Translations under genes and position numbers: made by a program
Assembly: GCF_025200925.1 (NCBI RefSeq)
Contig: NZ_CP104174.1
Span: forward strand, 6,634,001-6,698,000
Source: Bradyrhizobium sp. CB1015
Lineage (GTDB): Bacteria > Pseudomonadota > Alphaproteobacteria > Rhizobiales > Xanthobacteraceae
Reading direction: 5' to 3'
Length of the DNA: 64,000 nt
The notes under the pieces: generated by a model
Told to the model about the DNA's origin: nothing
Seen by the model: only the letters and a program-made list of their open reading frames with translations
Database searches by the model: none
Shown here: in pieces, positions 12,551-62,326 of the stretch
Numbering within the stretch: the first letter of the stretch is position 1
Layout: every line of letters begins with the position of its first letter

Positions 12551-12612
12551 TCCTTCTTCCGCGACCACCGTGACAATTTGCTAGGCTGATGTCCCGACAT
12601 GGGAGATCGCAG

Positions 12613-36059: not shown

Positions 36060-36491
36060 TCAGCGCGGGACGACGGCCGTCGCTTCGATCTCGACACGCG
36101 AGGATGGCTCGACGAGACGCACGATCTGCACCAGCGCCATGCTGGGGTAATGGGTGCCAATGACCTCGCGATAAACTTTGCCGAGCGCTTTCAGGTTCGA
36201 CACATATTCGTCCATGTCCACGACGTACCAAGTCAGGCGCACGAGATGGTCCGGCCGCGCGCCCCCCTCTGCCAGGATCGCGACGATGTTTTCGAGCGTC
36301 TGGCGGACCTGCGCAACGAGTCCGTCGGCAAATCGCCCGGCGACGTCCCAACCAACCACACCACCCGTCACGATGAGTCGTCCTTCAGCCATGACGCCGT
36401 TCGCATACCCTTTCGGCTGCGGCCAGCCACTGGGCTGAAGCAGTTGCAGACCACTCCTCGCGGCGACTTCCGGCTTTCTGATCGTACTCAT
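36060..36491 (-). CDS. RidA-family protein
   Basis: A 143-residue member of the Rid (YjgF/YER057c) family. RidA enzymes hydrolyse enamines and imines to ketones and ammonia. The conserved C-terminal part (VQIVRLVEPSSRVEIEATAV) includes the arginine used in catalytic members. It is the last gene of the operon that starts with the aryl-CoA monooxygenase (40023), 18 bp after the acyl-CoA dehydrogenase gene. A deaminating role on an amino- or imino-acid intermediate would fit an aminobenzoyl-CoA pathway. Confidence 0.88.
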   Translation of the reverse strand: MSTIRKPEVAARSGLQLLQPSGWPQPKGYANGVMAEGRLIVTGGVVGWDVAGRFADGLVAQVRQTLENIVAILAEGGARPDHLVRLTWYVVDMDEYVSNLKALGKVYREVIGTHYPSMALVQIVRLVEPSSRVEIEATAVVPR

Positions 36492-36509
36492 GCGTGGTTC
36501 TCAATCCTC

Positions 36510-37688
36510 TCAGCGCGGCTTCAACAGCTCGCGGGCGACAATCAACTTCTGGACCTCGGTCGCGCCCTCGTAGATGCGCAGCGCCCGGATTTCGCGATAC
36601 AGACTTTCAACGACCTCTCCCTTGCGCACGCCGCGGCCGCCGAACATCTGGACGGCCCGGTCGATGACGCGCTGCGCGGTCTCGGTGGCGGTCAGCTTCG
36701 CCATGGCAGCTTCGCGCGTCGTCGGAAGCTTCTGGACATCGCGGCGCCAGGCCGCGCGGTAGGTCAGCAGCGCCGCGGCATCGGTGTCGGTCGCCATGTC
36801 GCCGAGCGCGGCCTGGGTCAGTTGAAGATCCCCCAACGTTGCACCGAACATGTTTCGGCTGCGCGCATGCGACAATGCCTCGTCGAGCGCGCGACGGGCA
36901 AAGCCGAGGGCAGCGGCGGCGACCGATGCGCGGAATATATCCAGCGTCTGCATCGCGAGCTTGAACCCGCCGCCGGGCGCGCCGAGACGACGGCTGGCGG
37001 GAATCCGGCAATTGGTGAAGCGCAACGTCGCTAGCGGGTGCGGCGCGATGACGTCGATGCGCTCGGCAATGCCAAAACCGGGATCATCCGGAAAGACGAC
37101 GAAGGCCGAAATGCCGCGGGCGCCCGGCGCCTCGCCCGTTCGCGCAAACAGCGTATAGACGTCGGCAATGCCGCCGTTCGAGATCCAGGTCTTCTCGCCG
37201 TCGATGACGTAGTCGTTGCCGTCGGCCCGCGCCGTGCAGGACATCGCCGCGACGTCCGATCCCGCCTCCTTCTCGGACAACGCGAAGGCCGCGAGCCATT
37301 CGCCGGAACGCACCTTCGGCAGCACGGCCTTGCGCAGCTCCGCCGAGCCACCCAGCGCAATCGCTCCGGAGCCAAGCCCCTGCATAGCGAAAGCGAAATC
37401 GGCGAGGCCGTCGGCATAGGCCAGCGACTCGCGCGACAGGCAGATCGAGCGGGAATCGATCGACGTCGCATCGCCGTCGGGCGCCGCGACCGCGCAATCG
37501 AGCAACCCCGCCTCGCCCATCGCGCGCACAAGCTTGCGACAGGCACCATCCACATCATTGTGATCGATCTTGTCGAGGGCACCCGACTGCACGAAGCGGT
37601 CGAGCGCCTCGCCGATCGCATGATGGTGGGGCTCGAAGAACGGCCAGTCCAGCCATTCGCGCTGGATCATCTTGACCACGGAGTTCAT
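36510..37688 (-). CDS. Acyl-CoA dehydrogenase
   Basis: A 392-residue FAD enzyme of normal length. Typical segments are [28 protein letters not shown] (FAD/substrate region), [17 protein letters not shown], and [12 protein letters not shown] with the likely catalytic glutamate. It removes two hydrogens from an acyl-CoA; electrons pass to ETF. It lies 16 bp after the two-domain aryl-CoA monooxygenase and before ridA, so it probably acts on a non-aromatic ring or open-chain CoA thioester from that enzyme. Substrate inferred only. Confidence 0.92.
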
Positions 37689-37704
37689 CCGATCCCTCCT
37701 TCAC

Positions 37705-40023
37705 TCACTGCGCGGCCACAGCAGCGGCGCGCGCCAGATTGGTCTCGTATTGTCCCTTGGCGGACAGATATTGCTTCGGCCAGTCGACCGCTGTGATGCC
37801 GATGCGCGCGGCTTCGTGCAGCGTCCAGGCCGGGTCGGCGAGATGCGGCCGCGCAATCGCGCAGAGATCCGCGCGGCCGGCCGCGAGAATCGAGTTGGCG
37901 TGATCGGCCTCGGAGATCGCGCCGACTGCAATCGTCCCGATGCCGACTTCGTTGCGGATCAGATCGGCGAACGGCGTCTGGAACAGGCGGCCGTAGATCG
38001 GCCGTTCCTCCTTCCAGACCTGTCCCGAGGAGCAATCGATCACGTCTGCTCCCGCCTCCTTGAACATCACGGCGAAGATCGCAGCGTCGGCGGGCGTGTT
38101 GCCGCCTTCGGTCCAGTCATGGCAGGACAGCCGCACCGACATCGGCCGATCGGACGGCCACGCCGCGCGCATCGCCCTGAACACCTGCAGCGGAAAACGC
38201 GCACGATTTTCGTGGTTGCCGCCATATTCGTCAGTCCGCCGGTTGGTCAGCGGCGAGAGGAAGCTCGACAGCAAATAGCCATGGGCGCAATGAAGCTCGA
38301 GCCAATCGACACCGGCGTCGGCTGCACGGCGCGTTGCGGCGACGAAATCGTCGCGCACGCGGTCCATGTCGCTGCGGTTCATTTCCCGCGGCAACTGGCT
38401 GTGCGGCAGATAGGGCAGCGCGGAAGCCGAGATCAGCGGCCAATTGCCCGAAGCCAGCGGCTGGTCAATCCCTTCCCAAGCGAGCCGGGTCGATCCCTTC
38501 CGCCCGGCATGGCCGAGCTGGATGCCGACCTTGGCGTGTCCGAGGCTGTGGATCAGATCGACCAGCCGGCACCATTGTGCCGCTTGCTCATCGTTCCAGA
38601 GCCCGAGACAGCCCGGGGTGATCCTGGCATCCGGTGAGACGCAGGTCATCTCCGCAAAGATCAACGCGGCGCCTCCCATGGCGCGCGCTCCGAGGTGGGC
38701 GATGTGGAAGTCGTTGATGAACCCGTCCTTCGCCGAATACATCGCCATCGGCGAGACCATGATGCGGTTCTCCAGCGTGAGGCCGCGCACGCGGTGCGGC
38801 GTCAGCATCGGCGGCGGTACCCGTTCGCCGTCCCCGACGGCGATGCCCGAGCGCGCGGCAAACCATCGCTCGAATCCTTCCAACCAGGTACGGTCGCGCA
38901 GGCGCAGGTTTTCATGGCTGATGCGCTGCGAACGCGTCAGCATCGAATAGAAGAATTGCGGCGGCTCGAGCGTATCGGCATAGCGCCGGCCGACCACCTC
39001 GAACCATTCCATGGCATTACGCGCGGCGTTCTGGATGCGCGCCACGTCGACGCGGCGCACTTCCTCGTAGGCCTCCAGCACGGTCGGGATGCCGTCGCGA
39101 CCGTGACCATGGCGATCGAACTGGTTGGCGAGCTCGATGGCGTCGTCGAGCGCGAGCTTGGTGCCCGACCCGATGGCGAAATGCGCGGTGTGCGCGGCGT
39201 CTCCCATCAGCACGACATGGGAGCGGCCGTTGAACACGCTCCATTTGCCGCAGATCAGGCGGCTGAAATTGAGCCAGGCCGAGCCGCGCAGATGGCGGGC
39301 GTTGGTCAAAAGCTTCGCACCGTCGAGCGTCTCGGCAAAGATCTCTTCGCAGAAATCGATCGACCCCTGCTGATCGAGCTCACCCAGCCCGTGAGCATTG
39401 TAGGTTTCTTCCGTGGTCTCGACGATGAAGGTCGAGGTCTCCGCATCGAACTTGTAGATATGTGCCTGGAACCAGCCGTGCTCGGTCCTTTGGAAATCGA
39501 ACGTGAAGGCGTCGAACGCCTTCTTGGTGCCGAGCCAGATGTAGCGGTTCGGCCGGATCACCATGTCCGGCCGGAACTGTTCGGCATAGCGGGCGCGAAT
39601 CCTGGAGTTGACACCGTCGCAGGCGACGATCAGGTCGGCGTCGGGGAATTCGAGATCAGACTCCACCTCACGCTCGAAGGCGAGCTCGACACCCAGAGCC
39701 TCGCAGCGCCTCTGGAGAATGTTGAGCAGATGCTTGCGACCAATGCCGATGAAGCCGTGGCCGGTCGTACGCTGGCGCGTTCCCTTGAAGACCAGCTCGA
39801 TGTCGTCCCAGTGATTGAAGGCGTTCTCGATCTCGGCCGCGCTCTCGGGGTCGGCAAGGCGCATCGCAGACATCATGGCATCGGAGAACACCACCCCCCA
39901 GCCAAACGTATCGTAGGGCTTGTTGCGCTCGACGACCGTGATGACATGTTCCGGATGCCGACGCTTCATCAGCAGGCCCAGATAGAGGCCGGCCGGCCCG
40001 CCGCCGATACAGACTATGCGCAT
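37705..40023 (-). CDS. Two-domain FAD monooxygenase / old-yellow-enzyme reductase acting on an aryl-CoA (2-aminobenzoyl-CoA or salicylyl-CoA)
   Basis: A 772-residue fusion. Residues 1-390 are a flavin monooxygenase with the FAD motif [11 protein letters not shown] near residue 5 and the second FAD segment [19 protein letters not shown] near 285. Residues about 395-772 are an old-yellow-enzyme-type flavin reductase ([49 protein letters not shown]). This architecture is known for 2-aminobenzoyl-CoA monooxygenase/reductase of Azoarcus and is also named salicylyl-CoA 5-hydroxylase/oxidoreductase in databases. The start at 40023 has little room for a leader. First gene of operon B, divergent from a MarR gene. 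Which aryl-CoA it uses is unresolved. Confidence 0.88.
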
Positions 40024-40066
40024 GATCCCTCGCTTTCGCGCGTTGCGCCGAGCTCTCACTCAAATT

Positions 40067-40082
40067 ATTTTAAGTATAAAAT
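40067..40082. promoter_or_regulatory. Candidate operator: ATTTTA-N4-TAAAAT inverted repeat
   Basis: A perfect 6+6 inverted repeat lies in an AT-rich stretch (40062-40086) that stands out in GC-rich DNA. It is 44 bp before the aryl-CoA monooxygenase start and 170 bp before the divergent MarR gene. MarR proteins commonly bind AT-rich inverted repeats beside their own gene. Binding is inferred. Confidence 0.5.
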
Positions 40083-40252
40083 ATTTCCTCGGTGCGTACC
40101 TTGTCAAGGCGGTTCTGCAAAGACCTCGGAGGATACGCCACTCAACGCGGCGCCCATGCTGAAATTCAATGTAAACTTGACACAAAGCGGCGCCGATTCC
40201 GGATCTCTCGGACCCAGTCTTGAATTTACTTTTGGTACGAACTATCTTGCCG

Positions 40253-40813
40253 ATGTCCACGAGAGCTGCGCCAGCTTTCATAAGCCACGAAGCCCGGGAG
40301 ATTCGATTGGCACTCGCGAAGGAGTCCACGCCTGTTTCGGCCAGGAATGGGACGGATCAGGAGGCTGAGTACAGGGCTCAAACACGCCTTTGGCTCCGAC
40401 TGCTCGCCTGCACGACCCTCATCGAAGGCGAGTTGCGGCGCCGGTTTCGCGAAGAGTTCGACTTCACGATGCCCCGCTTCGACGTTCTCGCCCAGCTCGA
40501 CCGCGAACCGAGCGGGCTTGTGCTGGGAGAGCTGCCCAAGCGCCTGATGGTCTCGGCCGGGAACCTTACGCCAATCGTCGACCGCCTGGTCGCAGATGGA
40601 TACATCACCCGCACGGCGTCGAACCTCGACCGGCGCGTGCAGATCGTCTGTATGACGGTCGAAGGTCGCAAGATCTTCAGGCGAATGGCCAAGAGCCACG
40701 GCGCATGGCTTGCCGAGCTGCTGGCGGATTTCCCGGCAGATCGGTTCGATGGATTGATCGGCGAGCTCGACGAACTCAAGGCCGCCGTCAGGGACGCCTT
40801 GCAAAAACCCTAA
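40253..40813 (+). CDS. MarR-family transcriptional regulator
   Basis: A 186-residue regulator. The start at 40253 (MSTRAAP) is one choice; the conserved domain begins near residue 40. The winged helix is recognisable in PRFDVLAQLDREPSGLVLGE and LMVSAGNLTPIVDRLVADGY, with the wing around SNLDRRVQIVCMT. The gene is divergent from operon B and its 3' end faces the acyl-CoA ligase end of operon A, so it is placed to control the aryl-CoA pathway. Its effector may be an aromatic CoA thioester or free acid, as for relatives. Related in sequence style to the MarR at 62327. Confidence 0.9.
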   Translation: MSTRAAPAFISHEAREIRLALAKESTPVSARNGTDQEAEYRAQTRLWLRLLACTTLIEGELRRRFREEFDFTMPRFDVLAQLDREPSGLVLGELPKRLMVSAGNLTPIVDRLVADGYITRTASNLDRRVQIVCMTVEGRKIFRRMAKSHGAWLAELLADFPADRFDGLIGELDELKAAVRDALQKP

Positions 40814-40825
40814 GCGAATACAACG

Positions 40826-42490
40826 TCAGCGTCGTAGCTTCACTCCGGCCGCTTCGCGATCCCATGTATCCGTAGTGACGCCGGCATCGCGCAGCACGCC
40901 CTTCTTGATCTTGCCGTTCTCCGTCAGCGGCATCTGACTCAGGATTCGCACATAGCGCGGAATGGCGAAATAGGCGATCTGGCCTTCGCAATGCCTGACG
41001 ATGTCGACGGGCTGTAGCAAGTAGCCCGGTTCCAGCAGAATTGCAGCAGCAACTTCGTCCTCACCCAACTCCGACGGCAGCGGGTAGACCGCGCAGGCAG
41101 CGACCGCGGGATGCGACTGGATGGCGTGCTCGACCTCCCACGAGGACACGTTCTCGCCACGCCTGCGGATGGAATCCTTCATGCGATCGATGAAGCGATA
41201 ATGCCCGTCGCAATCGCGAACGACCCGATCGCCTGAGTGGAACCACAGATTTCGCCAGGCCTCCACTGTCTTCTCCGGCATGCCGAAATAGCCGGACGCG
41301 AACGCGAAGGGTTCTCTCGCGCGAAGCACGAGCTCGCCGGCCTCTCCATCCGGCAGCACGGAATCATTCTCGTCGACGATCCGCGCCTCGATGCCAGCGG
41401 CCAGGTACCCCATCGTTCCCGCCCGATCCGACGGAATCGTGCCGGCGAACACAAAATTCGTCTCGGTCGACCCGTAGCCGTCGACCAGCGGTACACCGAA
41501 GCGCTCGCGGAACGGGCCGTGAATTTGCGGCGGCACGCCGCCGCCAAGCGCGACACGAAGACGATGCATTGACTCGTCTGCGCTCTTCGGCTGCGCCAGG
41601 AGCATCGACGCCATCGCACCGAGCAGGTAGCCGACCGTCGCATTGTGCTGTCGCGCGGCAGCCCAAAAGCCGGAAGCAGAGAATTTCGGCTCGAGCACGT
41701 ACGTGCATCCGTTCAGCAGCGCCTGATAGAACGCATTCAGCGCGTTGGTGTGGAACAGCGGCAGCGTCGTGAACAGCACATCGCCCTCGCGGATTCCGAG
41801 CGCCCGCGCCGAATAGATGCCCCACCAGAACAGCTGCGCCTGCGGACAGCACACACCCTTCGCAGGCCCCGTGGTGCCCGACGTATAGAGGATTGCAACG
41901 GTGTCACCGGGACGCACGGCGCCCGCTGGGGCTGCGGCTCCAAGAGGCGGCAGCGCGATCGGGGAAAGCCTGGCGCCGATTGCGTCGGCGGCAGCCCCGA
42001 TGATCCAGGTCCGAGGCGGCAGCTCGACACCCGCCTCGACACTCTCGACCGCGCTGACGAACTGAGCCTCGACGACGAGAAGCGCGGGACGCGAGTTGCG
42101 GAAAATGTGGGACAGCTGGGAGCCGCGCAATGCGGTATTGATCGGGACCGCGATCGCCCCCAGCCACGCACAGCCGAGATAGACCTGCAAGAACTCCGGA
42201 CGGTTCGAGCACATCAGCGCGACCCGATCGCCCGGCTTGATTCCGGTATCGACCAGCGTCTGGGCCGACGCGGCCGCAATCGCCGCGGTCTGCGCAAAGC
42301 TCCAACGCGCCTGTCCGGCAACGAGCAGAAGGCGATCGCCGTAACGCTCCGCCTGCCGCGTGAGCATCGTCGAGAGGATGCGCTCAGACGGCGGAAACGA
42401 CGCCATCGCGCGCGCCCAGGCAGGCGTCACGTCCTCACAGCCGACCACCTCGCTGATGTTCGCCAGCGCATCGTTCTCCATTGCGATCAT
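40826..42490 (-). CDS. AMP-forming acyl-CoA ligase (likely aromatic acid:CoA ligase)
   Basis: A 554-residue adenylate-forming ligase. The ATP-binding motif YTSGTTGPAKG lies near residue 215, GYGSTETNF near 345, and the C-terminal catalytic lysine region is in ENGKIKKGVL. GAGGTG precedes the start at 42490, which is nine bases after the binding-protein gene. It is the last gene of operon A and lies beside the aryl-CoA monooxygenase, so 2-aminobenzoate or salicylate is the likely substrate. By sequence alone it looks like the broad carnitine/aryl ligase group and the substrate cannot be fixed. Confidence 0.87.
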   Translation of the reverse strand: MIAMENDALANISEVVGCEDVTPAWARAMASFPPSERILSTMLTRQAERYGDRLLLVAGQARWSFAQTAAIAAASAQTLVDTGIKPGDRVALMCSNRPEFLQVYLGCAWLGAIAVPINTALRGSQLSHIFRNSRPALLVVEAQFVSAVESVEAGVELPPRTWIIGAAADAIGARLSPIALPPLGAAAPAGAVRPGDTVAILYTSGTTGPAKGVCCPQAQLFWWGIYSARALGIREGDVLFTTLPLFHTNALNAFYQALLNGCTYVLEPKFSASGFWAAARQHNATVGYLLGAMASMLLAQPKSADESMHRLRVALGGGVPPQIHGPFRERFGVPLVDGYGSTETNFVFAGTIPSDRAGTMGYLAAGIEARIVDENDSVLPDGEAGELVLRAREPFAFASGYFGMPEKTVEAWRNLWFHSGDRVVRDCDGHYRFIDRMKDSIRRRGENVSSWEVEHAIQSHPAVAACAVYPLPSELGEDEVAAAILLEPGYLLQPVDIVRHCEGQIAYFAIPRYVRILSQMPLTENGKIKKGVLRDAGVTTDTWDREAAGVKLRR

Positions 42491-42499
42491 GCTCGCACC

Positions 42500-43657
42500 T
42501 CAAGGCAACAGCTTGTACTTGCCGTCCTCGATCCGGACCATGATGCGCGAGCGATCGTCGACTCCATGCCGGTCCGCCGGCGTATAGGTGTAGACGCCCT
42601 GCGTTCCGACGACCTCCTTGGTGGTGAACAGCGCCTGGCGAATCGCGGTACGGAACTCAGGTGAGCCTGGCTTGGCACCGGTCGCCATCGCACGCTTGGC
42701 GGCATCGGCGAAGATCAGCCAGCCGTCGAAGGAATAGGACGAGAATGAATCCGTCGGCGCCTCGCCGTTGGCCTTTTCGAAGGCCGAGCGGAAATCCAGG
42801 GCGACCTTCTGGATCGGATTGCTGGCCGGAAGCTGCTCCGCCGCGGTCACAGGTCCCGTCGGGCACATGATGCCGTTGGCGGCTTTGCCGGCCAGACGAA
42901 GGAAATCGGCACTGATCAGCCCGTGATTGCCATAGAGCGGTCCCTTATATCCACGCTCGGACAGAGCGATGACCGGCAGCGCGCCTGGCGTGCCGGTGCC
43001 GCCGAGCATGATGGCGTCGGGACGCGCGGCGAGTGCGCGCAGCACCTGAGCCGTCACCGAGGCGTCCGACCGGGCGTAGCGTTCATTGGCGATGACCTTG
43101 ATGCCGGCGGCCTTCGCACTCTGCTCGAGCGAATTGTACATGAGATCGCCGAACGCATCGGAGAAACCGATGAAGGCGACGGTCGTCAGGCCCTTCGCCT
43201 TCATGTGATCGACGATTCCTTGCACCAGAAGCGGCGTGGGCTGCGGCGTCTGCACGACCCAGGGATCGCCGTCGCCTGATGGCACCGGTGCGATCGGCGA
43301 CACCGCGATCATCGGAATCTTCATCTCGATGGCCGCGGTCGCCATCGCGAGCGTCTGGGGAGCGCCGGACGTGCCGATCAGGATATCGACCTTCTCTTGC
43401 TCGACCAGCTTGCGCGCATTGCGTGCCGACGCGGTCGGATCAGAGCCGTCATCGAGCTGGATGACCCGCAGCTTCTCGCCGCCGATCTCGCCGATATAGG
43501 CCTGACCTGCCGCGATCCCCTTCGCGTTGGGAATACCGATCGATGACACCGGCCCACTGAGGCCCGTAACGAATCCGACGAGGATCTCGGCCTGCGCGAA
43601 TTGCGGAACGGCAAGCAGCAATGCAGTGGAAGCCACCAGGCTCTTGATCAAGTTCAT
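42500..43657 (-). CDS. Liv-type ABC transporter binding protein (probably for an aromatic acid)
   Basis: A 385-residue secreted protein with signal peptide MNLIKSLVASTALLLAVPQF (start 43657). The mature part opens ILVGFVTGLSGPVSSIGIPN, the type I fold of branched-chain amino-acid/aromatic-compound binders. It is a clear paralogue of the protein at 48850 (shared IQLDDGSDP, NARKLVE, MIAVSPI, GFSDA-GDL). No permease is beside it, so it may use the transporter at 50042-53561. Such proteins in related bacteria often bind aromatic acids. Operon A context points to an aromatic ligand. Confidence 0.88.
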   Translation of the reverse strand: MNLIKSLVASTALLLAVPQFAQAEILVGFVTGLSGPVSSIGIPNAKGIAAGQAYIGEIGGEKLRVIQLDDGSDPTASARNARKLVEQEKVDILIGTSGAPQTLAMATAAIEMKIPMIAVSPIAPVPSGDGDPWVVQTPQPTPLLVQGIVDHMKAKGLTTVAFIGFSDAFGDLMYNSLEQSAKAAGIKVIANERYARSDASVTAQVLRALAARPDAIMLGGTGTPGALPVIALSERGYKGPLYGNHGLISADFLRLAGKAANGIMCPTGPVTAAEQLPASNPIQKVALDFRSAFEKANGEAPTDSFSSYSFDGWLIFADAAKRAMATGAKPGSPEFRTAIRQALFTTKEVVGTQGVYTYTPADRHGVDDRSRIMVRIEDGKYKLLP

Positions 43658-43714
43658 GGCACCTGTCTTTCGGGAGAATTTCTTGTTCTGATTGGCGAGC
43701 GCCATGGATTGGGC

Positions 43715-44497
43715 TCAAGTCGACGACACCAGAGCGATGACTCGAAGCGGGCTGCCGGAGCCGTTCTGGATCTTCAGAGGCGAAGCCACGATGACGGCGC
43801 CGGTGGCCGGAAGCTGATCCAGGTTACACAGGCATTGCAGGCCGTAGCGGCCCGCGCCGTGCAGGAAGTGATGCGCCGGATAAGGCGGCTCGAAGTGTCC
43901 GGCCTGCCCCGCATCCGTGCCGATGGTTTCGGTACCGAAACCGATGACACCGCGCTCCTCCACCAGCCACTTCATCACCGCCGGGTTTGGGCCCGGCGTA
44001 TGCGCGCCGTCGTCCCTGAGATTGGAGTAGTCGCGCCAGCTCTTCTTCGACCAGTCGGTCCTGAGCAACACCCAATTCCGCTCGGGGATACGGCCGTGCC
44101 TGGCTTCGAAGGCTTCGACAATCGGGACGGTCAGCAGGAAATCGGGATCCTGCGCCGCCTGCGCCGAGCAGTCGATGACACAGGCCGGTGCGATCATGTC
44201 CTTGGCCGGCATCGTGTCGACGGCATTGTTCGGCAGGTTCTTGCCGGTGAACCAGTGAATCGGCGCATCGAAATGCGTGCCGGTGTGTTCGCCGAACGTA
44301 ACGTTGTTCCAGTACCAGGCCGGGCCGCGACCATCGTATCGCGATATCTCCTGGATGCGGACAGGCGCGGCCTGACCGAACTCCGGCGGGAGGACGATGA
44401 CCGGAAAGTCCGGACTGAGTGTGAAGGTCAGATCGACGACGCGCACCGCGCCGGAAGAAACCGCACTCGCCAGCTCCAGGAGACTCTTGCTTTGCAT
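43715..44497 (-). CDS. Cyclase / kynurenine formamidase superfamily hydrolase, isatin hydrolase-like
   Basis: A 260-residue metal hydrolase. The superfamily motif HTGTHFDAPIHW gives putative manganese ligands His71, His75 and Asp77, and His81 follows. A good ribosome site (GGAGG) precedes the ATG at 44497. Size and motif match isatin hydrolases (isatin to isatinate), but kynurenine formamidases and other cyclases share the motif. It lies in operon A with a binding protein, CoA ligase and thiolase-like genes, next to the aryl-CoA monooxygenase operon. Isatin breakdown gives isatinate and then anthranilate, the substrate expected for an aminobenzoyl-CoA route. That link is inference. Confidence 0.75.
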   Translation of the reverse strand: MQSKSLLELASAVSSGAVRVVDLTFTLSPDFPVIVLPPEFGQAAPVRIQEISRYDGRGPAWYWNNVTFGEHTGTHFDAPIHWFTGKNLPNNAVDTMPAKDMIAPACVIDCSAQAAQDPDFLLTVPIVEAFEARHGRIPERNWVLLRTDWSKKSWRDYSNLRDDGAHTPGPNPAVMKWLVEERGVIGFGTETIGTDAGQAGHFEPPYPAHHFLHGAGRYGLQCLCNLDQLPATGAVIVASPLKIQNGSGSPLRVIALVSST

Positions 44498-44532
44498 CGT
44501 CACGTCCTCCAGCTCGGTTGAAATCCCGCTTC

Positions 44533-45774
44533 TTATCTGTCGAGCTCGCGCTCGAGCGCTTTCGGATTGGCCGCGAGACGTTGCCGGATCTCTTCGGCGA
44601 CATCTCCGACATACATCTCCTCGAGCCCCTTCTTGAGGCCCGACACGATCGCCTGTGCGATCACGCGCGGCGCGACCTTCGGCGGCGGCACGGTCTGGAA
44701 CCATTCGGTGTCGACAGGGCCGGTGAACAGGTTCATCACCCGGACGCCGCCGGGCCGCAGCTCCGCGCGCAAGCAATGCGACAGCGACAGGCACGCCGCT
44801 TGCGAGGCCGAGTAGGCGCCGAAGGCAGGCCAGTTCGCCAGCGCATAGACCGAGAGAATATTGACCCATGCGGCACTGCTGTTGATACCGTCGGCACCGC
44901 GCATCCGCATGGCGGGGCCAAAGGCTTGAGCGAGATTGATGAAGCCGAGATAGGCCTGATCGATCTCGTCGCGTGCGATGCTCGTGCCCCTGCGGTCGAG
45001 CAGGCCGCCCGGCCGGACATATTCGGTCGTGTTGACGAGAATATCGACCTTGCCGCCGATATCGGCCGCAAGATCGGTAGTCGATTTTTCGTCAGCCGCA
45101 TCGAGAGTCACGATCTCGATCCCGTCCTGACCGCGCAGCCGCTCTTCGCCGGCGAACGGTCGCCATGGTTCGGCAATGCCGACGAACACCGTCTTGGCGC
45201 CCGCCGCCTTCAAAGCGGCGACGGCTTCCTGACCGATGACGCTGCGGCCGTTGGTGACGAGCGCGCGACGGAATTTCGGATCGGCCGTCATTTCCCGCCA
45301 CTGCTTGTCGTCTGCCATGTTGGGAGTCTCCGCTTCGGGATGGGCAAAGGCCACCGCCTGGCCGCTCTTGTCCAGTTGCAACGACATGCTGACGGCCGCC
45401 CCCTCAGCGCAGTCGGCATGAAGATGTGCGACGATCGTCGGACCGCAATCCATCTTGATGAGGCCGATCCGCCACGGCGCTCGTTCGCGGAAATAGACGT
45501 CGCTTGGTACGCGCGCCGTTGTCTCGGCAAGCAGTACACCTCGCCGCGGCGCATCGACGAAAGCGAGGCCGGCCGAAAGACAAGACGGGCAGGCTTCGCG
45601 CGCCGGATAGGCAAAGGCGCCGCAAGCCTCGCAGCGCTGCAGCATAAAGCGGCCTTCGGCGGCCGCGCGCGTGAACCCGTGCGACATCCTGCTGCGCGGT
45701 CGCGGTGGCGAGGCCGGTAGCCGCGTCCGCAGCAGCGGGTTCTTGCGCCGGGGCGGCTTGATCGGCTCTATCAT
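44533..45774 (-). CDS. DUF35 (zinc-ribbon/OB-fold) protein fused to a degenerate SDR domain
   Basis: A 413-residue fusion. Residues 44-140 form a DUF35 unit with a zinc ribbon (Cys48, Cys51, Cys62, Cys65) and an OB fold. Residues about 165-413 resemble a short-chain dehydrogenase, but the cofactor loop reads VTNGRSVIGQ, and the catalytic Tyr-x-x-x-Lys reads YSASQ, with Gln in place of Lys. The SDR part may not be an active dehydrogenase. DUF35 proteins pair with thiolase-like aldolases; the partner gene at 45771 overlaps this start by ATGA. The pair probably acts on a CoA thioester. Confidence 0.8.
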   Translation of the reverse strand: MIEPIKPPRRKNPLLRTRLPASPPRPRSRMSHGFTRAAAEGRFMLQRCEACGAFAYPAREACPSCLSAGLAFVDAPRRGVLLAETTARVPSDVYFRERAPWRIGLIKMDCGPTIVAHLHADCAEGAAVSMSLQLDKSGQAVAFAHPEAETPNMADDKQWREMTADPKFRRALVTNGRSVIGQEAVAALKAAGAKTVFVGIAEPWRPFAGEERLRGQDGIEIVTLDAADEKSTTDLAADIGGKVDILVNTTEYVRPGGLLDRRGTSIARDEIDQAYLGFINLAQAFGPAMRMRGADGINSSAAWVNILSVYALANWPAFGAYSASQAACLSLSHCLRAELRPGGVRVMNLFTGPVDTEWFQTVPPPKVAPRVIAQAIVSGLKKGLEEMYVGDVAEEIRQRLAANPKALERELDR

Positions 45775-46949
45775 CGCGAAGGTCCAGCAAGGATCGCGGC
45801 GCCCGAGGCGAGACCACGATCATAATTGATCATACCGAACCCCGAGGCCAGAGCGAGGCTCGCATTTCTGACCTGCGTGGGACCGGCACTGCCCAGAACC
45901 TGCCGCAGCCCTTCAACGAGACCGAGATAGGCGCCGGCGGCACCGGCCTGCCCGACCGAGAGCTGTCCGCCCGAGGTGTTGTGCGGGAAGTCGCCGTCTA
46001 TGGTGAGATCGTGTTGGCGCACGAACTCGGCGCCCTCGCCCTTCTTGCAGAAGCCGAGATCCTCGAACTGCATCATCGTGATGACGGGATAGTCGTCATA
46101 GGTCTGCACGACATCGAGATCGTCAGGCTTCACGCCGGCCATCGCATAGAGCTCGCCGACGTCCATCGCCCAGCCGCCGCGCACCTGCATCGGATCGTCG
46201 GCAAAGGCATTGTGCCGCTCGATCGTCGAAAGGAGTCGCGCGGCCGGCAGCTGCAGCGATGACGCCGTCTCATCGCGCATCACGAGGAAAGCCTCCGCGC
46301 CCGCACAGGGCATCACGCAATCAAACAGGTGGATCGGATCGGAAATCGGCCGGGCCGCCAGGTATTGCTCGAGCGTGAGCGGCGCCTTCATCAGCGCATG
46401 CGGGTTGCGGACGGCATTGGCGCGCTGGGCGACAGCGATCTTGCCGACATCCTCGCGCGCGACGCCGAACATTCGCATATAGTTGCGCGCAATCAGCGCA
46501 AAGCTGGCATTGGCACCGCCCGCGCCGTAAGGATAGACGGCGTCCTGATTGAACCGCGAGAAATTCTCCAGCGTCAGCCTGAACGAATCGACGTGATTGG
46601 TGTCGCCAGCGACGCACGCCACGATGTCGGCGTCGCGCGCCTGAACCGCGCGCGCCGCCTTGCGCAGCGCCGCGATGGCGCTGGCGCCGCCGAGCGGGAT
46701 CGTATCCAACCACCGGACGCAAAGCCCGAAATGCTGCGTCAATCCGATGCCACTGTCCGTGCCCATGGTGAAACTGGAGACGCACAGGCCGTCGATGTCG
46801 GACGCCTTGATGCCGGCCTGCGCGACGAGCGCACTCAGCGCCCGCCCGATCCACCACTGCGCGCTCTCGATGGAGTAGCGCACGTAGGGAATCGTGACGG
46901 GAGCCGCGATCACGACGCCGTCATATGGTGCGCGCAAGGTGTTGGTCAC
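45771..46949 (-). CDS. Thiolase-like protein lacking thiolase catalytic residues (Ltp2/SCP-x type)
   Basis: A 392-residue thiolase-fold protein. The usual nucleophile region (normally N-R-x-C-x-S-G) reads IPLGGASAIAAL, the GHPxG histidine is replaced in SVGQAGAAG, and the C-terminal Cys-x-Gly is ASGFGM. All three thiolase residues are therefore absent. The segment VQTYDDYPVITMMQFEDLGF is typical of SCP-x/Ltp2-like proteins, some of which are retro-aldolases needing a DUF35 partner. The DUF35-SDR gene follows with a 4-bp overlap. A carbon-carbon cleaving (aldolase) role on a CoA thioester is the best inference. Confidence 0.82.
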   Translation of the reverse strand: MTNTLRAPYDGVVIAAPVTIPYVRYSIESAQWWIGRALSALVAQAGIKASDIDGLCVSSFTMGTDSGIGLTQHFGLCVRWLDTIPLGGASAIAALRKAARAVQARDADIVACVAGDTNHVDSFRLTLENFSRFNQDAVYPYGAGGANASFALIARNYMRMFGVAREDVGKIAVAQRANAVRNPHALMKAPLTLEQYLAARPISDPIHLFDCVMPCAGAEAFLVMRDETASSLQLPAARLLSTIERHNAFADDPMQVRGGWAMDVGELYAMAGVKPDDLDVVQTYDDYPVITMMQFEDLGFCKKGEGAEFVRQHDLTIDGDFPHNTSGGQLSVGQAGAAGAYLGLVEGLRQVLGSAGPTQVRNASLALASGFGMINYDRGLASGAAILAGPSR

Positions 46950-46970
46950 CGACCGCCCTCGTTCATCCGC

Positions 46971-47399
46971 TCAGACCACCGTCAGTTTCACGTCAATATT
47001 GCCGCGGGTTGCGTTCGAATAGGGGCAACGCTCATGCGCACTGGCAACGACCTCTTCGGCCGTAGCCTTCTCGACACCGGGCAGGTTGACTTTCAGCTCG
47101 ACAGCGAGCGCATATCCGACGGGCACCGGCCCCATCGCGACCTTCGCAGTCACGGACGGCTCGGCAGAGGGCACCACCTTCCGCGTGCGCGCGACGAGCT
47201 TGACCGCGCCGAGAAAGCAAGCGGCATAGCCGGCCGCAAAGAGCTGCTCGGGATTGGTGCCTTCGCCACCGGGGCCACCCATCGATTTCGGCAAGGACAG
47301 GGACACCGACAGCAGACCGTCAGCGCTGGCGGCCTTGCCATCCCGACCTCCGGTCGCCGTCACCTCGGTCTCGTACAGGATCTTTTCGGGGGTCATCAT
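46971..47399 (-). CDS. Organic hydroperoxide resistance protein (Ohr-type)
   Basis: A 142-residue protein of the Ohr branch. Two catalytic cysteines are in YAACFLGAV (near residue 62) and ERCPYSNATRGNI (near 125); the ATRGN ending is diagnostic for Ohr over OsmC. It starts with two adjacent ATGs. It lies in operon A between the racemase-family gene and the thiolase-like gene (31-bp and 21-bp gaps), suggesting that this catabolic route produces peroxide or reactive intermediates, perhaps from flavin monooxygenase uncoupling. Confidence 0.92.
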   Translation of the reverse strand: MMTPEKILYETEVTATGGRDGKAASADGLLSVSLSLPKSMGGPGGEGTNPEQLFAAGYAACFLGAVKLVARTRKVVPSAEPSVTAKVAMGPVPVGYALAVELKVNLPGVEKATAEEVVASAHERCPYSNATRGNIDVKLTVV

Positions 47400-47430
47400 G
47401 ACTTGTTATCCAGGAACGGTTTTTCGAGGA

Positions 47431-48213
47431 CTAGCGGCTGTTACGGGCAAGTAATGCGCGGAAATCATCGCGGGCCTGGGCGCTCGCCCGCCTGAAGCTC
47501 GGCCCGCGGCTGGGCTCGGTGCCATTGAGCTTGCGGAGCTGCACCCACATCTCGGCACTCTTGAGCGCCACGGCCGCGCAGTTGACCACCGGAGCGTGGC
47601 CGACCTTCAGGCCATGCTCTCGCCCGATCAAAAGGCCTGGCAACACGCCGGCCGGGATCACGACATCGGCGCCGCGTTCCACCAGCGGGAGCGCGCAGGC
47701 GACGAAGTCCTTGATCATGCGGGCTTGCGCGGCAGCGTTTCCGGCGAACGCATCGGCGAAATCCTCCGGCCTGCAGCCAAGGCCGGTCACATGGACGAGG
47801 CGATCGCCGAGGCCGTAACGCTCGGCCTGCTCATAGTGCCAGACCTCGAAGACGGGATCGAGCGTCACAAGACCTAGCCGCCGCCCGAGTTGTGAGGCCG
47901 CCAGCAACGTCGACTCGCCGGTCCCGATCACGGGAATGTCGAGCGCCGAGCGCAGCTCGTAGAGTCCGGGATCCTGAAAATGCCCCATGACGAAGGCGTC
48001 GAACCCGCCCTCCTCCGCCGCGATGCCGTTGTCGATGGCCTGGACTGCACAGCGCAATTCCGCGAGCCGTCCGAACTCGCGGTCCGGCGGACTGATGCCC
48101 TCGACGTGAACCGTCGTACCCGGCGCAGCGATGTCGTTTAGGTATTCCGACAGCCGCGCCATGTAGGGCGCGTTCACGCTCGTATCAACAAAGCTCTGCC
48201 AGAAGATGCGCAT
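47431..48213 (-). CDS. Asp/Glu/hydantoin racemase-family protein without catalytic cysteines
   Basis: A 260-residue protein (start MRIFWQSF at 48213). The fold is clear from DIPVIGTGESTLLAA and GLVTLDPVFEVWHYEQAERYGL. The first catalytic cysteine (normally C-f-g-D-P-G) is His78 in GHFQDPG, and the second (normally L-G-C-A-G-M) is Gly189 in IPAGVLP. A cysteine-based racemase or isomerase mechanism is therefore impossible here. It may be a decarboxylase, lyase or hydrolase variant. First gene of operon A, so it is probably expressed with the aromatic pathway. Function unknown. Confidence 0.8.
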   Translation of the reverse strand: MRIFWQSFVDTSVNAPYMARLSEYLNDIAAPGTTVHVEGISPPDREFGRLAELRCAVQAIDNGIAAEEGGFDAFVMGHFQDPGLYELRSALDIPVIGTGESTLLAASQLGRRLGLVTLDPVFEVWHYEQAERYGLGDRLVHVTGLGCRPEDFADAFAGNAAAQARMIKDFVACALPLVERGADVVIPAGVLPGLLIGREHGLKVGHAPVVNCAAVALKSAEMWVQLRKLNGTEPSRGPSFRRASAQARDDFRALLARNSR

Positions 48214-48849
48214 CGTCCTTCTCCTCAAGCGGTGATCGGAGGATCGGTCGTCGGCTGCCGATGAATATATTTCAATCATAAACTAATTCGCGCGTCAAAT
48301 GCGCGCGGCGGCGAGGGCGGCTAGTGCGGTCAGGGCCAAGGCGAGCACGGCGTTTTCGCTCAGTCGAGGAGCGGAGAAACGCCGCACACTGGCGAAATTG
48401 TATGCAACAACATTTTTTTCCGACAGCCCCGTGACACGTGTTGACGGCGCCACCGGAGATACTTTAGGCTTTAAGTAATTCCTCGCCGGTCAAGGACCGG
48501 TGGCCATGACAATGATGTTGCAGGGCACCGATTTTGAGAGACTCGATCGTGTGGACAGTCGCCGTGCTCGAACAGCCGGCCTTAGCAGCAGCATCGCCGG
48601 TCGCGCATCGCGGCCGCACCGACGACCTTTCATCGCTCCGGAAAAGGCCCGCTTGCATTTGCCGGTGGGCCTGTCGTTCGCGCGGCACGCAACATCATGG
48701 CCGCTGAGCGCCCGGGCGAGCATACTCTCTTCGGTCGCGCCCGGTATTTGGCGCCGCAACAATGCTTTCAATCGGTCGGTTCGTCGTTCGGGGACCCCGC
48801 GCGGCAGCATCGAAGCATTCCTATCCAGCATCAACGGAGGAGAACGCAT
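48214..48849. other. Divergent intergenic region between operon A and the Liv transporter operon
   Basis: It must hold two promoters. The stretch 48261-48290 is AT-rich (TATATTTCAATCATAAAC) and lies close to the racemase-family start. A perfect ribosome site (GGAGGAG) at the right edge belongs to the transporter gene. A minus-strand open end at 48297-48420 (SENAVLALALTALAALAAAR, then stop) has no start and may be a gene fragment. Other open frames have no coding bias. Confidence 0.45.
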
Positions 48850-49998
48850 ATGCGCAAGGCTCTGAGCTTACTTGCACTTGCCGCCGGCATCGTCACAGCC
48901 CCGGCCGCGCGGGCCGATATCACCATCGGCTTCGTCACCTCGCTCAGCGGCAACGGCTCGTCGATCGGCATCCCTTACGGGCGCGGCATCAACGCGGCGT
49001 ATGAATACAAGAAGACCGTCAACGGCGAGACCATCCGCCTGATCCAGCTCGACGACGGCTCCGACCCGTCGGCCGCGACCCGCAACGCGCGCAAGCTGGT
49101 GGAAGAAGAGAAGGTCGACCTCCTGATCGGCACCGCGACGGCGCCTTCGACCATCGCCATGGCGGCGGTGGCGAGCGAATTGAAAGTGCCGATGATCGCG
49201 GTCTCGCCGATCGGCAAACTTCCGGAAACACCCGAGCAGTGGGTGGTGTCGGTGCCGCAGCCTGCATCCCTTCTCGTCAAGATCATCGCCGATCGCATGA
49301 AGCGCGATGGCATGAAGAACGTCGGCTATATCGGCTTCTCCGACGCGTGGGGGGACCTCGTCTACAACGGCGCCAAGGCGGCGGAGGCTGCCGGCGACGT
49401 CAAGATCCAGACCAACGAGCGCTATGCGCGCACCGACACTTCGGTCACCGCGCAGATCCTCAAAGTGCTTGCGGCGCGGCCGGACGCCGTGCTGGACGGC
49501 GGCTCGGGGACGCAAGGCGCGCTGCCTCTCCTCAGCCTGGCGGAGCGCGGCTTCAAGGGAAACACCTACGGCACGGTGGCGCTTGTCAATCCGGACTTCG
49601 TGAACGTCGGCGGCAAGGCGGCCGAAGGCATCCAGGTCTCCGCCGGCCCCGTCATCGTGGCCGAGCAGCTGCCCGACGAACACTTCGCCAAGAAGATCGC
49701 GCTGGATTTCCGCAGCGTCTACCAGAAGGTCCATAACATCCCGACCACCGACGGCTTCTCCGCCTACTCCTTCGACGCCTGGCTGATCTTCGCCAACGCA
49801 GCGGAGCGCGCGCTCAAGACGGCGAAAGCCGGCACGGCGGAATTCCGCACCGCCCTGCGGGATGCGATCCTCAGCACCAAGGAGCTGCCGGGCGTGCATG
49901 CCATCTACAACTTCAAGCCCGGCGCGGTGACCGGCGTCGATGAGCGCGCGCTGGTCGTGGTGCGCCTGACGGGCGGCGCCTGGAAATACGCGCCGTAG
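48850..49998 (+). CDS. Liv-type ABC transporter binding protein
   Basis: A 382-residue secreted protein with a GGAGGAG ribosome site and signal peptide MRKALSLLALAAGIVTAPAA. The mature part, ITIGFVTSLSGNGSSIGIPY, and many shared motifs show it to be a paralogue of the binding protein at 42500. It starts a plus-strand operon with permease, permease-ATPase fusion and ATPase genes. The ligand is unknown; the surroundings suggest an aromatic acid or aromatic amino-acid derivative rather than leucine. Confidence 0.9.
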   Translation: MRKALSLLALAAGIVTAPAARADITIGFVTSLSGNGSSIGIPYGRGINAAYEYKKTVNGETIRLIQLDDGSDPSAATRNARKLVEEEKVDLLIGTATAPSTIAMAAVASELKVPMIAVSPIGKLPETPEQWVVSVPQPASLLVKIIADRMKRDGMKNVGYIGFSDAWGDLVYNGAKAAEAAGDVKIQTNERYARTDTSVTAQILKVLAARPDAVLDGGSGTQGALPLLSLAERGFKGNTYGTVALVNPDFVNVGGKAAEGIQVSAGPVIVAEQLPDEHFAKKIALDFRSVYQKVHNIPTTDGFSAYSFDAWLIFANAAERALKTAKAGTAEFRTALRDAILSTKELPGVHAIYNFKPGAVTGVDERALVVVRLTGGAWKYAP

Positions 49999-50041
49999 TC
50001 GGACGGCGGCAGGCCACCAGAACAAGGGGACGGCGTTCTCA

Positions 50042-51085
50042 ATGACGAGCGACATCGCAGCCATTCTTGCGATCGACGGGATCGCCACCGGCGCAGTCTA
50101 TGCGCTGGTGGCGATCGGGACCGTCCTCATCTTCACCGTGACACGGGTCATCTTCATTCCCTTTGGCGACATCGCGGCCTTCACGGCGCTGACGCTGGCG
50201 GCGCTCGATGCGAAGCGCTTTCCGGGCACGGGCGCGCTGGTCGTCATCCTGGCGTGCCTCGCAACTCTGATCGAAATCATCTCGCTGCTGCGCAACGGCG
50301 AGCTTCGGCTGCTTCCGCGCGCTCTCTTCTTCTACCTCGCATTGCCGCTGGCCGTGATTGGCCTCGCCTGGCTGACCATGCGCGCCGAGCCGCCGCTCGC
50401 CATCAGGCTCGTGCTGGCCTTGATGCTGATCACCCCGATCGCCCCGCTGCTGGACCGGATCGTCTTCCGCCCTATTGCGGACGGAACGGTGCTGCTGCTC
50501 CTGACCGTCTCCGTCGCCCTGCACTTCGCGCTGGTCGGCCTTGGGCTGCTCTTCTTCGGTCCCGAGGGTGTCAGGACCGAGCCGCTGACGTCATTGTCGA
50601 CCGAATTTGCGGGCGTGCTGATCTCGGGCCAGACCATGCTGATCGTGATCGCAGCCCTCGTCTTCTCTGGCCTGCTCTATCTCTTCTTCGACTTCACGCT
50701 GGTCGGTAAATCGCTCCGCGCCACAGCCGTGAACCGCACCGGCTCCCGCCTGATGGGCATACGTCCCGCCCGCGCCGGTACCATCGCCTATCTCCTGGGC
50801 TCGCTGATGGCCGGCGTCTCCGGCATCCTGATCGCGCCCGTCAACACCGTATTCTACGATTCCGGCTTCCTGATCGGCCTCAAGGCCTTCGTCGGCGCCA
50901 TCGTCGGCGGCATGACCAGCTATCCCGGCGCGGCCATCGGCGCCGTCGGCGTCGGTATCCTCGAGAGCTTCGCATCCTTCGAGAGCAGCGCGCTGAAGGA
51001 TGTCATCGTGTTCTCGCTTCTGATCCCGATCCTGATCTGGCGATCCCTCGCGTCGCTGCATTCCGAGGAGGAGATCGAGGAATGA
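50042..51085 (+). CDS. Liv-type ABC transporter permease (LivH-like)
   Basis: A 347-residue inner-membrane permease, longer than the usual 290 or so because of an extra hydrophobic section at about residues 60-135 (LVVILACLATLIEIISLL; FFYLALPLAVIGLAWL). N-terminal GIATGAVYALVAIGTVLIF and the later GIRPARAGTIAYLLGSLMAG are family segments. Stop overlaps the next start by ATGA. Works with 51082 and 52848. Confidence 0.9.
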   Translation: MTSDIAAILAIDGIATGAVYALVAIGTVLIFTVTRVIFIPFGDIAAFTALTLAALDAKRFPGTGALVVILACLATLIEIISLLRNGELRLLPRALFFYLALPLAVIGLAWLTMRAEPPLAIRLVLALMLITPIAPLLDRIVFRPIADGTVLLLLTVSVALHFALVGLGLLFFGPEGVRTEPLTSLSTEFAGVLISGQTMLIVIAALVFSGLLYLFFDFTLVGKSLRATAVNRTGSRLMGIRPARAGTIAYLLGSLMAGVSGILIAPVNTVFYDSGFLIGLKAFVGAIVGGMTSYPGAAIGAVGVGILESFASFESSALKDVIVFSLLIPILIWRSLASLHSEEEIEE

Positions 51086-58321: not shown

Positions 58322-58396
58322 CGGCCCTACCCTGTCGCTGGCCCATGACCGCCTAGTCGGAGGGTGGATCCGCAAGGGTGATAGCATGGCGCGGCG

Positions 58397-62262: not shown

Positions 62263-62326
62263 GGAGCGAAAGACCCGCGGTAATTCCCTTCACTCGACGA
62301 GACATTCTGTACTCGATGGTCATGCG

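Follow-up and report, generated by a model that had tools for sequence, protein, structure and literature searches.

A putative DUF35-dependent retro-aldolase in the auxin-degradation (iad) locus of Bradyrhizobium sp. CB1015

How is the acetyl side chain of an oxidised auxin removed when the thiolase-like protein encoded near the isatin hydrolase has no nucleophilic Cys? This question is raised by a 64,000-nucleotide stretch of DNA from Bradyrhizobium sp. CB1015 (the window; positions 6634001-6698000 of the source genome, G000, a single contig of 8.41 Mb). A first-pass annotation had described part of this stretch as a candidate cluster for the degradation of isatin or anthranilate, in an arrangement that it did not recognise. 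Each gene that it named is present in a long frame on the minus strand and matches its family strongly (Table 1). These genes do not stand alone but make up the left-hand section of a locus for auxin degradation (iad), whose upstream substrate is probably indole-3-acetate (IAA). We propose that two proteins of this locus, IadG and IadH, act as a retro-aldolase that depends on a DUF35 domain. Together with the whole route set out below, this is the best explanation we can offer, and we regard it as fairly probable.

The cyclase of the cluster, earlier said to be of the isatin hydrolase type, is an isatin hydrolase A by PDB comparison and motifs, and is predicted to convert isatin to isatinate. 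Residues 4-258 of this protein, IadI, align with isatin hydrolase A (5nna) at 399 bits, and likewise with 5nnb. The signature of isatin hydrolases consists of HxG[T/A]HxDxPxH, GLQC or GLAS, and WXW (PMC6117287), and it is complete in IadI as HTGTHFDAPIH, GLQC and WYW. The residues His71, His75 and Asp77 singled out previously are exact when counted from the start at 44497. With the enzymes of Labrenzia aggregata (5nna/5nnb) and Ralstonia solanacearum (PMC6117287) it shares the metal motif, GLQC, WXW and a near full-length alignment, and the sequence comparison shows no difference. The closest named relatives, among the best 80 of 115 matches, are from Bradyrhizobium, with up to 98% identity. 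These 80 matches, with flanks of at most 10 kb that are sometimes ended by contig edges, were taken as loci (L). There are 59 Bradyrhizobium-type loci (58 so named and L011), of which 13 were laid out gene by gene, and 21 others, of which 20 were laid out and the 3 kb L071 was omitted. The record that holds L011 is titled Frankia sp. RB7, yet its locus is 86-96% identical to Bradyrhizobium proteins and the record is probably mislabelled. In two further loci (L096:8501-15045 and L097:5798-12328), the gene for an isatin hydrolase of the IHB type (GLAS) is followed by a flavin amine-oxidase-like gene and then by the oxidoreductase genes IorAB; these stretches contain no other iad genes and possibly have a different source of isatin.

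There is only one match to PF00866 in the genome (E <= 0.001), a family that we take to be that of anthranilate-dioxygenase small subunits. This match is an iadE-like gene located 1.8 kb to the right of the window beside iadC- and iadD-like genes (adjacent IadD/IadE with reductase IadC occupy L006 coordinates 9794-12575, immediately right of the window), and these oxygenase subunits score far under the anthranilate- and benzoate-dioxygenase cut-offs. Since the genome has no second PF00866 match at this threshold, the coenzyme A (CoA) route for anthranilate favoured in the first-pass annotation is reasonable. The iadC-D-E-F-J set lies mostly outside the window, and the genes for IadG, IadH and IadI, binding proteins, IorAB and two MarR regulators lie inside it. 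By this gene content it is a Bradyrhizobium iad locus, ordinary in kind and extending past the right window edge, and it probably serves IAA breakdown via the already known pathway. The arrangement is therefore not undescribed, as Bradyrhizobium japonicum USDA110 has an iad locus and degrades IAA via dioxindole-3-acetate and isatin to anthranilate (PMC9613470).

Comparison with the iad loci of Variovorax paradoxus CL14 and USDA110, made from the text of the papers (PMC9613470, PMC12633357), indicates that the reductase, the alpha and beta subunits of the Rieske oxygenase, CoA ligase, thiolase-like protein, protein like the short-chain dehydrogenases/reductases (SDRs), cyclase, SDR, binding protein, IorAB and MarR are shared. 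Here, in contrast, the genes are spread over several separate operons, and a Liv transporter, Ohr, a racemase-family gene, gentisate-type genes, a nitrilase and a monooxygenase module are interposed or adjoining. The DUF35-SDR fusion, the plus-strand MarR gene between the two minus-strand operons and the rightward extension of the locus all go beyond the first-pass annotation.

The association of these genes was evaluated with 40 Bradyrhizobium genomes, G000 included and two less than 90% complete; these genomes are kin, and Fisher values from them overstate independence. Isatin hydrolase is found in 18 genomes of this genus sample and IadD in the identical 18, with both on a single contig in 17 (7-31 kb start to start). 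Ten of these 18 IadD matches carry a flag for a single in-frame stop; they end a few residues before the query does, and the stop is taken to be the gene's own. The class sample has 289 genomes with isatin hydrolase in nine, so the co-occurrence test is carried by the genus sample. IadG is present in seven of those nine, and an eighth genome with IadG (G193, 64% complete) gave no hydrolase match. Homologues of IadF, IadG, IadH, IadI and IadJ share one neighbourhood, about 20 kb apart, and are nearly contiguous in L094 of the same genus. Outside Bradyrhizobium, IadG-IadH-IadI are contiguous in 17 of the 20 loci laid out, with IadD/IadE in the fetched flank of seven and IorA in that of ten. On one plasmid each of Roseibium aggregatum and Sulfitobacter indolifex, the genes iadC to iadJ follow one another without a change of order (reductase, oxygenase alpha and beta, AMP ligase, thiolase, SDR, cyclase, SDR) and adjoin a divergent MarR gene, and in Shinella (L092) nitrilase, IorAB, MarR, ligases and IadG-IadH-IadI are packed inside about 15 kb.

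IadG is described here as a thiolase-fold protein with aldolase-like residues. Its best PDB matches by sequence (phmmer) are 9myr (176 bits), 6ok1 (144), the thiolase 4u4e (141) and 7yvy (131). Its AlphaFold model was searched with Foldseek, and 9myr ranks first (E 3.3e-31), 6ok1 second (1.4e-26) and the Pyrococcus furiosus thiolase 7yvy third (1.6e-26). The confidence of this model (pLDDT 77.9; 75.0 for the other model used in this study) is moderate, the first residue is absent from both models and they were used for fold only. The first of these structures is the Sal-Shy(DUF35) aldolase of Comamonas testosteroni (PMC12329534) and the second is the Ltp2-ChsH2(DUF35) aldolase. Distance in fold and sequence thus favours Sal clearly and Ltp2 over the thiolases narrowly, and the residues weigh more.

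In Sal, the nucleophilic Cys of thiolases is replaced by Gly, the aldolases use as base the Tyr that opens the motif YDHF (Ltp2) or YDCY (Sal), and Gln347 and Gln352 of Sal may activate Cys304 (PMC12329534). At the nucleophile place, 73 of 74 IadG sequences have Gly, and the one from L085 is broken there. The Cys expected of a ketothiolase is therefore missing, as the first-pass annotation had observed when it called the protein Cys-less with a DUF35 partner (PF12172 and PF01796 are next door). A YDDY motif is present in 74/74 sequences, and in the alignment its first Tyr falls on the catalytic bases Tyr294 (Ltp2) and Tyr302 (Sal). Two Gln residues, which by our count correspond to Gln347 and Gln352 of Sal, do not vary among the 18 sequences of alignment A1, in whose numbering the IadG residues are Tyr283, Asp285, Gln328 and Gln333 (plus one if counted from the GTG start).

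The architecture shared with Sal-Shy(DUF35) (PMC12329534) thus comprises the thiolase fold, Gly for the nucleophilic Cys, the Tyr base, the two Gln and a DUF35 partner. The two systems differ in that IadG has Asp for Cys304, in that the partner is fused to a broken SDR here and not to a MaoC hydratase, and in that the proposed substrate is an indole derivative here and a steroid for Sal. Shared with Ltp2-ChsH2(DUF35) are the fold, the Tyr base and the four-Cys zinc ribbon in DUF35, whereas IadG has no Tyr at the Tyr344 place and YDDY instead of YDHF.

Some features of both proteins weigh against an aldolase of this kind. The general acids of Sal and Ltp2 are both absent from IadG: Cys304 is replaced by Asp, and Tyr344 by Gly in the pairwise alignment, or by Gln according to the Sal equivalence given in the paper. 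In addition, Gln161, which belongs to the oxyanion site of Sal, is Ala or Pro. The thiolase 4u4e scores almost as well as Ltp2 by sequence, and 7yvy almost as well by fold, with a target TM-score above that of Sal. Moreover, 27 of 262 IadH sequences retain both the Tyr and the Lys of the SDR signature. IadG should nevertheless work like the Sal and Ltp2 aldolases with another general acid, perhaps that Asp. Because the known general acid is not kept, we file IadG as working like these enzymes and not as a proven member of their group.

The partner protein IadH is a fusion in which one part appears intact and the other broken. The four Cys of the DUF35 zinc ribbon are kept in 76/78 locus sequences, and in 115/120 and 120/120 of the database homologues. 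SDR enzymes have a signature that consists of TGxxxGxG plus the Tyr and Lys of YxxxK. The corresponding motifs of the window IadH are TNGRSVIG and YSASQ, and neither the complete signature nor the three Gly of TGxxxGxG is found in any of 262 IadH sequences (the window protein, 240 database proteins, made up of the best 120 of 2629 matches and the best 120 of 5730, and 21 from the loci; many are close kin). Gln replaces Lys in 106 of the 120 homologues closest to the window IadH. Among the 120 closest to the IadH of L086, Lys is kept in 119 and Phe replaces Tyr in 92. These 92 include the seven named Variovorax sequences, none of them from strain CL14. As a control, 15 IadJ sequences have YxxxK throughout and TGxxxGxG in 14, the exception being L080, whose aligned stretch did not show the motif. 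The IadH model retains the SDR fold. This part appears dispensable because L098 carries a protein with DUF35 alone at the IadH place. We therefore propose that the SDR part is a non-catalytic remnant or scaffold, and that IadH is a non-redox partner of IadG.

These observations suggest a route in which the side-chain step is carried out by an aldolase, and not by a thiolase with a dehydrogenase as in the published scheme. IadCDE would oxidise IAA and IadJ would yield dioxindole-3-acetate, as published for Variovorax, and a CoA ligase would then form dioxindole-3-acetyl-CoA. In dioxindole-3-acetate, C3 bears the hydroxyl group, two ring bonds and the side chain, and is thus a tertiary carbinol. 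Oxidation to the beta-keto group required by a thiolase is therefore ruled out and thiolysis is impossible, but a retro-aldol reaction of the CoA ester is possible. IadG, held by the DUF35 part of IadH, would cleave this tertiary beta-hydroxyacyl-CoA to isatin and acetyl-CoA; the leading Tyr of YDDY would be the base, and no redox step would be involved. This proposed reaction parallels the cleavage of beta-hydroxy steroid CoA esters by Sal and Ltp2. The isatin hydrolase gene is the next but one after iadG, and IadI would open isatin to isatinate. IorAB (IadAB) could convert isatinate, an aryl-glyoxylate, to 2-aminobenzoyl-CoA and CO2; finally, the two-domain monooxygenase/reductase may dearomatise 2-aminobenzoyl-CoA, and RidA may help to remove ammonia. 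Sequence and fold comparison establish what the locus is, the isatin hydrolase, the missing thiolase and SDR signatures and the fold match of IadG; the reactions given for the ligase, IadG, IadH and IorAB, and all later steps, are inferred. The ligase Lig1, whose fourth PDB match is the anthranilate-CoA ligase 4wv3 (173 bits), is a candidate for acting on anthranilate or dioxindole-3-acetate. Three formulas from the literature recur below, and we take C8H7NO2 to be dioxindole, C8H7NO3 isatinic acid and C7H7NO 2-aminobenzaldehyde.

2-Oxoacid:ferredoxin oxidoreductases can make aroyl-CoA from aryl-glyoxylates, for example benzoyl-CoA from phenylglyoxylate, and an IorAB-like enzyme may act on isatinate in this way. 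There is some evidence of association. IorA is found in all 18 hydrolase-bearing genomes of the genus sample and in one other (G318), and each of the nine hydrolase-bearing genomes of the class sample has it (42 of 289 genomes have IorA at no less than 50% identity). The distance between the two genes in those nine is at most about 2 kb in three (G001, G154 and G202) and 14 kb in G000. IorAB lies directly before isatin hydrolase in L079, L082 and L084, whose retrieved flanks show neither IadG/IadH nor IadDE, and it is also close to the hydrolase in L096 and L097; the neighbours of these pairs outside iad loci include no common isatin-forming enzyme. C8H7NO3 and C7H7NO pile up in strains that apparently lack iadAB, upon overexpression in a deletion background (PMC12633357). 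The isatinate role is proposed because IorAB accompanies isatin hydrolase, even without other iad genes, and because of this pile-up. In the available parts of the iad literature, no enzyme is assigned to the step that consumes isatinate. Counting against this role, 33 of the 280 class genomes that lack isatin hydrolase also have IorA (at least 50% identity), and in five of the nine with both genes the two lie on different contigs. In Variovorax, iadC-K2 alone still yields anthranilate, and thus IadAB is not essential for anthranilate formation.

Perhaps iad auxin breakdown proceeds through CoA thioesters, with IadGH as a third kind of DUF35-dependent aldolase, IorAB making 2-aminobenzoyl-CoA from isatinate and free anthranilate as an overflow product; we offer this broader picture tentatively. 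The value of the finding lies in two reassignments: an aldolase role for IadGH, with its SDR part inactive, and an isatinate-consuming role for IadAB. If IadG proves to be an aldolase with IadH as a non-redox partner, and if IadAB acts as an oxidoreductase on isatinate, two steps of the published scheme would change and DUF35-dependent aldolases would reach beyond steroids. Root growth is influenced by bacteria that degrade auxin, and the transfer of iad genes to further soil bacteria is already under way (PMC12633357).

The two-domain enzyme may act on 2-aminobenzoyl-CoA by analogy with the 2-aminobenzoyl-CoA monooxygenase/reductase of Azoarcus, which has also been proposed for Arthrobacter (PMC4539516, PMC3534580). 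The two activities expected from descriptions of the Azoarcus evansii enzyme fit the two domains here. In this route a CoA ester of C7H8O4 fits deamination of the first product (PMC4539516, PMC3534580), and RidA probably speeds hydrolysis of the enamine that arises from 2-aminobenzoyl-CoA. The two-domain architecture expected in the first-pass annotation was found; its substrate may be 2-aminobenzoyl-CoA or, as the NCBIfam name salicylyl-CoA 5-hydroxylase implies, a different one. The monooxygenase, dehydrogenase and RidA genes, moreover, do not travel as one unit with the isatin genes, as had been supposed. The monooxygenase (at least 75% identity) is found in 8 of 18 hydrolase-bearing genus genomes and 2 of the 22 others, and in 4 of the 18 it lies no more than about 6 kb from the hydrolase. 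It is in the flank of 18 of the 59 Bradyrhizobium-type loci, and five of the 59 (L010, L011, L014, L016 and L021) keep the dehydrogenase and RidA with no monooxygenase within the flank. A second cluster in the source genome (L093:3026-11509, at about 6.434-6.443 Mb) contains a two-domain monooxygenase, RidA (75% identical to the window RidA), MarR and a gene of the benzoate-CoA-ligase family. Such monooxygenase paralogues (50-52% identity) are present in 31 of the 40 genus genomes, G000 included, and the second cluster is likely an anthranilate or salicylate module.

For this last part of the route, 5-hydroxylation is a possible alternative, although we are inclined to doubt it, and it is compatible with the aldolase and isatinate steps above it. 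Instead of dearomatisation and beta-oxidation, 2-aminobenzoyl-CoA would be converted to 5-hydroxyanthraniloyl-CoA, which the thioesterase would hydrolyse to 5-hydroxyanthranilate for cleavage by the gentisate-type dioxygenase and processing by the fumarylacetoacetate (FAA) hydrolase. Ring cleavage of a 5-hydroxylated product, possibly by the gentisate-1,2-dioxygenase-like protein, deserves consideration because this gene follows the locus more faithfully than the two-domain enzyme does. It is found in 17/18 genus genomes with isatin hydrolase and 1/22 without (Fisher p = 3.5e-9, from related genomes), and 5-hydroxyanthraniloyl-CoA is reported for the Azoarcus enzyme when reduced nicotinamide adenine dinucleotide (NADH) is limiting (PMC3534580). 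However, there is no match to the dioxygenase-like gene in G324, which has the locus, and Arthrobacter Rue61a, which uses the CoA route, is described as showing no growth on 5-hydroxyanthranilate.

The published scheme for the side chain assigns ketothiolase activity to IadG and alcohol dehydrogenase activity to IadH; with IadF, the two would remove the acetyl group reductively to give dioxindole before IadI acts. By the authors' own statement, the functions of IadF (acyl-CoA synthase), IadG and IadH were assigned from annotation (PMC12633357, a 2025 preprint). Deletion of iadF, iadG, iadH or iadI accumulates C10H9NO4, and C8H7NO2 piles up without iadI (PMC12633357), which speaks for this scheme, as does the closeness of thiolases to Ltp2 in matching IadG. 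The detection of C8H7NO2, and not isatin, upstream of IadI (PMC12633357) is the main fact contrary to the retro-aldolase. A redox-neutral retro-aldol reaction predicts isatin, and isatin would have to be reduced in the cell to fit the detection of dioxindole; such a putative reduction would explain it. Nevertheless, we consider the published assignment unlikely, as IadG lacks the nucleophilic Cys, no IadH has a complete SDR signature (the seven Variovorax proteins with Phe for the catalytic Tyr included) and a quaternary beta-carbon is unfit for a substrate of a beta-keto thiolase.

A salicylate route, in which the two-domain enzyme is a salicylyl-CoA 5-hydroxylase and the thioesterase, gentisate dioxygenase and FAA hydrolase at 54-57 kb finish via gentisate, draws on the NCBIfam equivalog name above its cut-off (PRK08255) and on those neighbouring genes, but it is set aside as a main route and kept as a highly improbable rival: the gentisate-like gene tracks isatin hydrolase and scores under the gentisate cut-off, and isatin hydrolase and the iad oxygenase, for which we know of no place in salicylate breakdown, would be without a role. 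Finally, the beta-oxidation-like steps after 2-aminobenzoyl-CoA that had been assigned to IadG and its DUF35 partner are rejected on motifs and synteny: their genes and that of isatin hydrolase stay together as one conserved block, and strains deleted for iadG or iadH accumulate C10H9NO4, ahead of isatin (PMC12633357).

Table 1. Features of the window and its right flank, in window numbering.
Feature	Position	Strand	Basis and remarks
RidA/YjgF family	36060..36491	-	PF01042, 67 bits
Acyl-CoA dehydrogenase family protein, putatively lower pathway	36510..37688	-	PF00441, PF02770, PF02771
Two-domain flavin adenine dinucleotide (FAD) monooxygenase/Old Yellow Enzyme (OYE)-type reductase	37705..40023	-	PF01494 + PF00724; PRK08255 1345 bits, cut-off 1078; probable start ~40023, longest frame opens at GTG 40059, 12 codons upstream
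MarR-family regulator between the two minus-strand operons	~40253..40810	+	best PDB match 3boq, 79 bits
Acyl-CoA ligase Lig1, PRK06155 type	40826..42490	-	PRK06155 895 bits, cut-off 722
Liv-type periplasmic binding protein	42500..43705	-	PF13458 172 bits
IadI, isatin hydrolase A	43715..44497	-	PDB 5nna/5nnb 399 bits; probable start 44497, longest frame (from 44869) would overlap neighbouring gene
IadH, DUF35 (ChsH2-type) zinc ribbon/OB + SDR domain fusion	44533..45774	-	PF12172, PF01796, PF00106
IadG, SCP2-thiolase-fold protein without nucleophile Cys, YDDY motif	45771..46949	-	best fold match 9myr
Ohr-type organic hydroperoxide reductase	46971..47399	-	TIGR03561 177 bits, cut-off 89
Asp/Glu/hydantoin racemase superfamily protein	47431..48213	-	PF01177 71 bits
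Liv-type ABC transporter operon	48697..53561	+	PF13458, PF02653, PF00005; binding protein ~48850-49998, permease 50042-51085, permease-ATPase fusion 51082-52851, ATPase 52848-53561
235-amino-acid protein	54044-54751		no Pfam match
4HBT-like thioesterase	54748..55263	-	PF13279 51 bits, PF03061 35 bits
FAA hydrolase family protein	55185..56093	-	PF01557 235 bits
Gentisate-1,2-dioxygenase-like protein	56139..57245	-	TIGR02272 320 bits, under cut-off 442
Nitrilase-family protein	57299..58387	-	PF00795 142 bits; Nit6803 model 230 bits, under cut-off 503
IadA-like IorA (2-oxoacid:ferredoxin oxidoreductase alpha)	58449..60608	+	TIGR03336 297 bits, under cut-off 651
IadB-like IorB	60605..62170	+	PRK08312 729 bits, cut-off 348
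Second MarR-family regulator	62324..62818	+	best PDB match 3boq, 126 bits
IadJ-like SDR, cut by window end	63425..64000, start ~64153	-	TGGNSGIG and YSATK intact
iadF-like CoA ligase, beyond window	64170..~65780	-	
iadE-like oxygenase beta, beyond window	65794..66270	-	PF00866
iadD-like oxygenase alpha, beyond window	66267..~67613	-	
iadC-like reductase, beyond window	67625..68575	-	

Several of the other genes in Table 1 recur beside isatin hydrolase elsewhere. Relatives of the 235-amino-acid protein are found near it in L072, L075, L076 and L086. The nitrilase gene adjoins IorA here and also occurs in Martelella (L072) and Shinella (L092); it is matched in seven of the 40 genus genomes, four of which have flagged in-frame stops that may reflect match ends. 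Ohr and/or Asp/Glu-racemase genes accompany IadG-IadH-IadI in L069, L070, L073, L075, L076 and L091, with no IadDE in the fetched flank. In Agrobacterium pusense the order is Ohr-IadG-IadH-IadI-racemase with a shortened H gene; the annotated IadH-like gene (L091:13551-14429) has no DUF35 part and an IS3 transposase nearby, and may be decaying or misannotated. The B. japonicum MarR structure 7kym (PMC11630574) matches one of the two window MarR proteins weakly and the other not at all, 3boq being best for both. A LivH-type permease is present in 57 of the 59 Bradyrhizobium-type loci, and the binding protein encoded next to IadI is, by its place, the counterpart of IadK2 and would probably serve auxin uptake.

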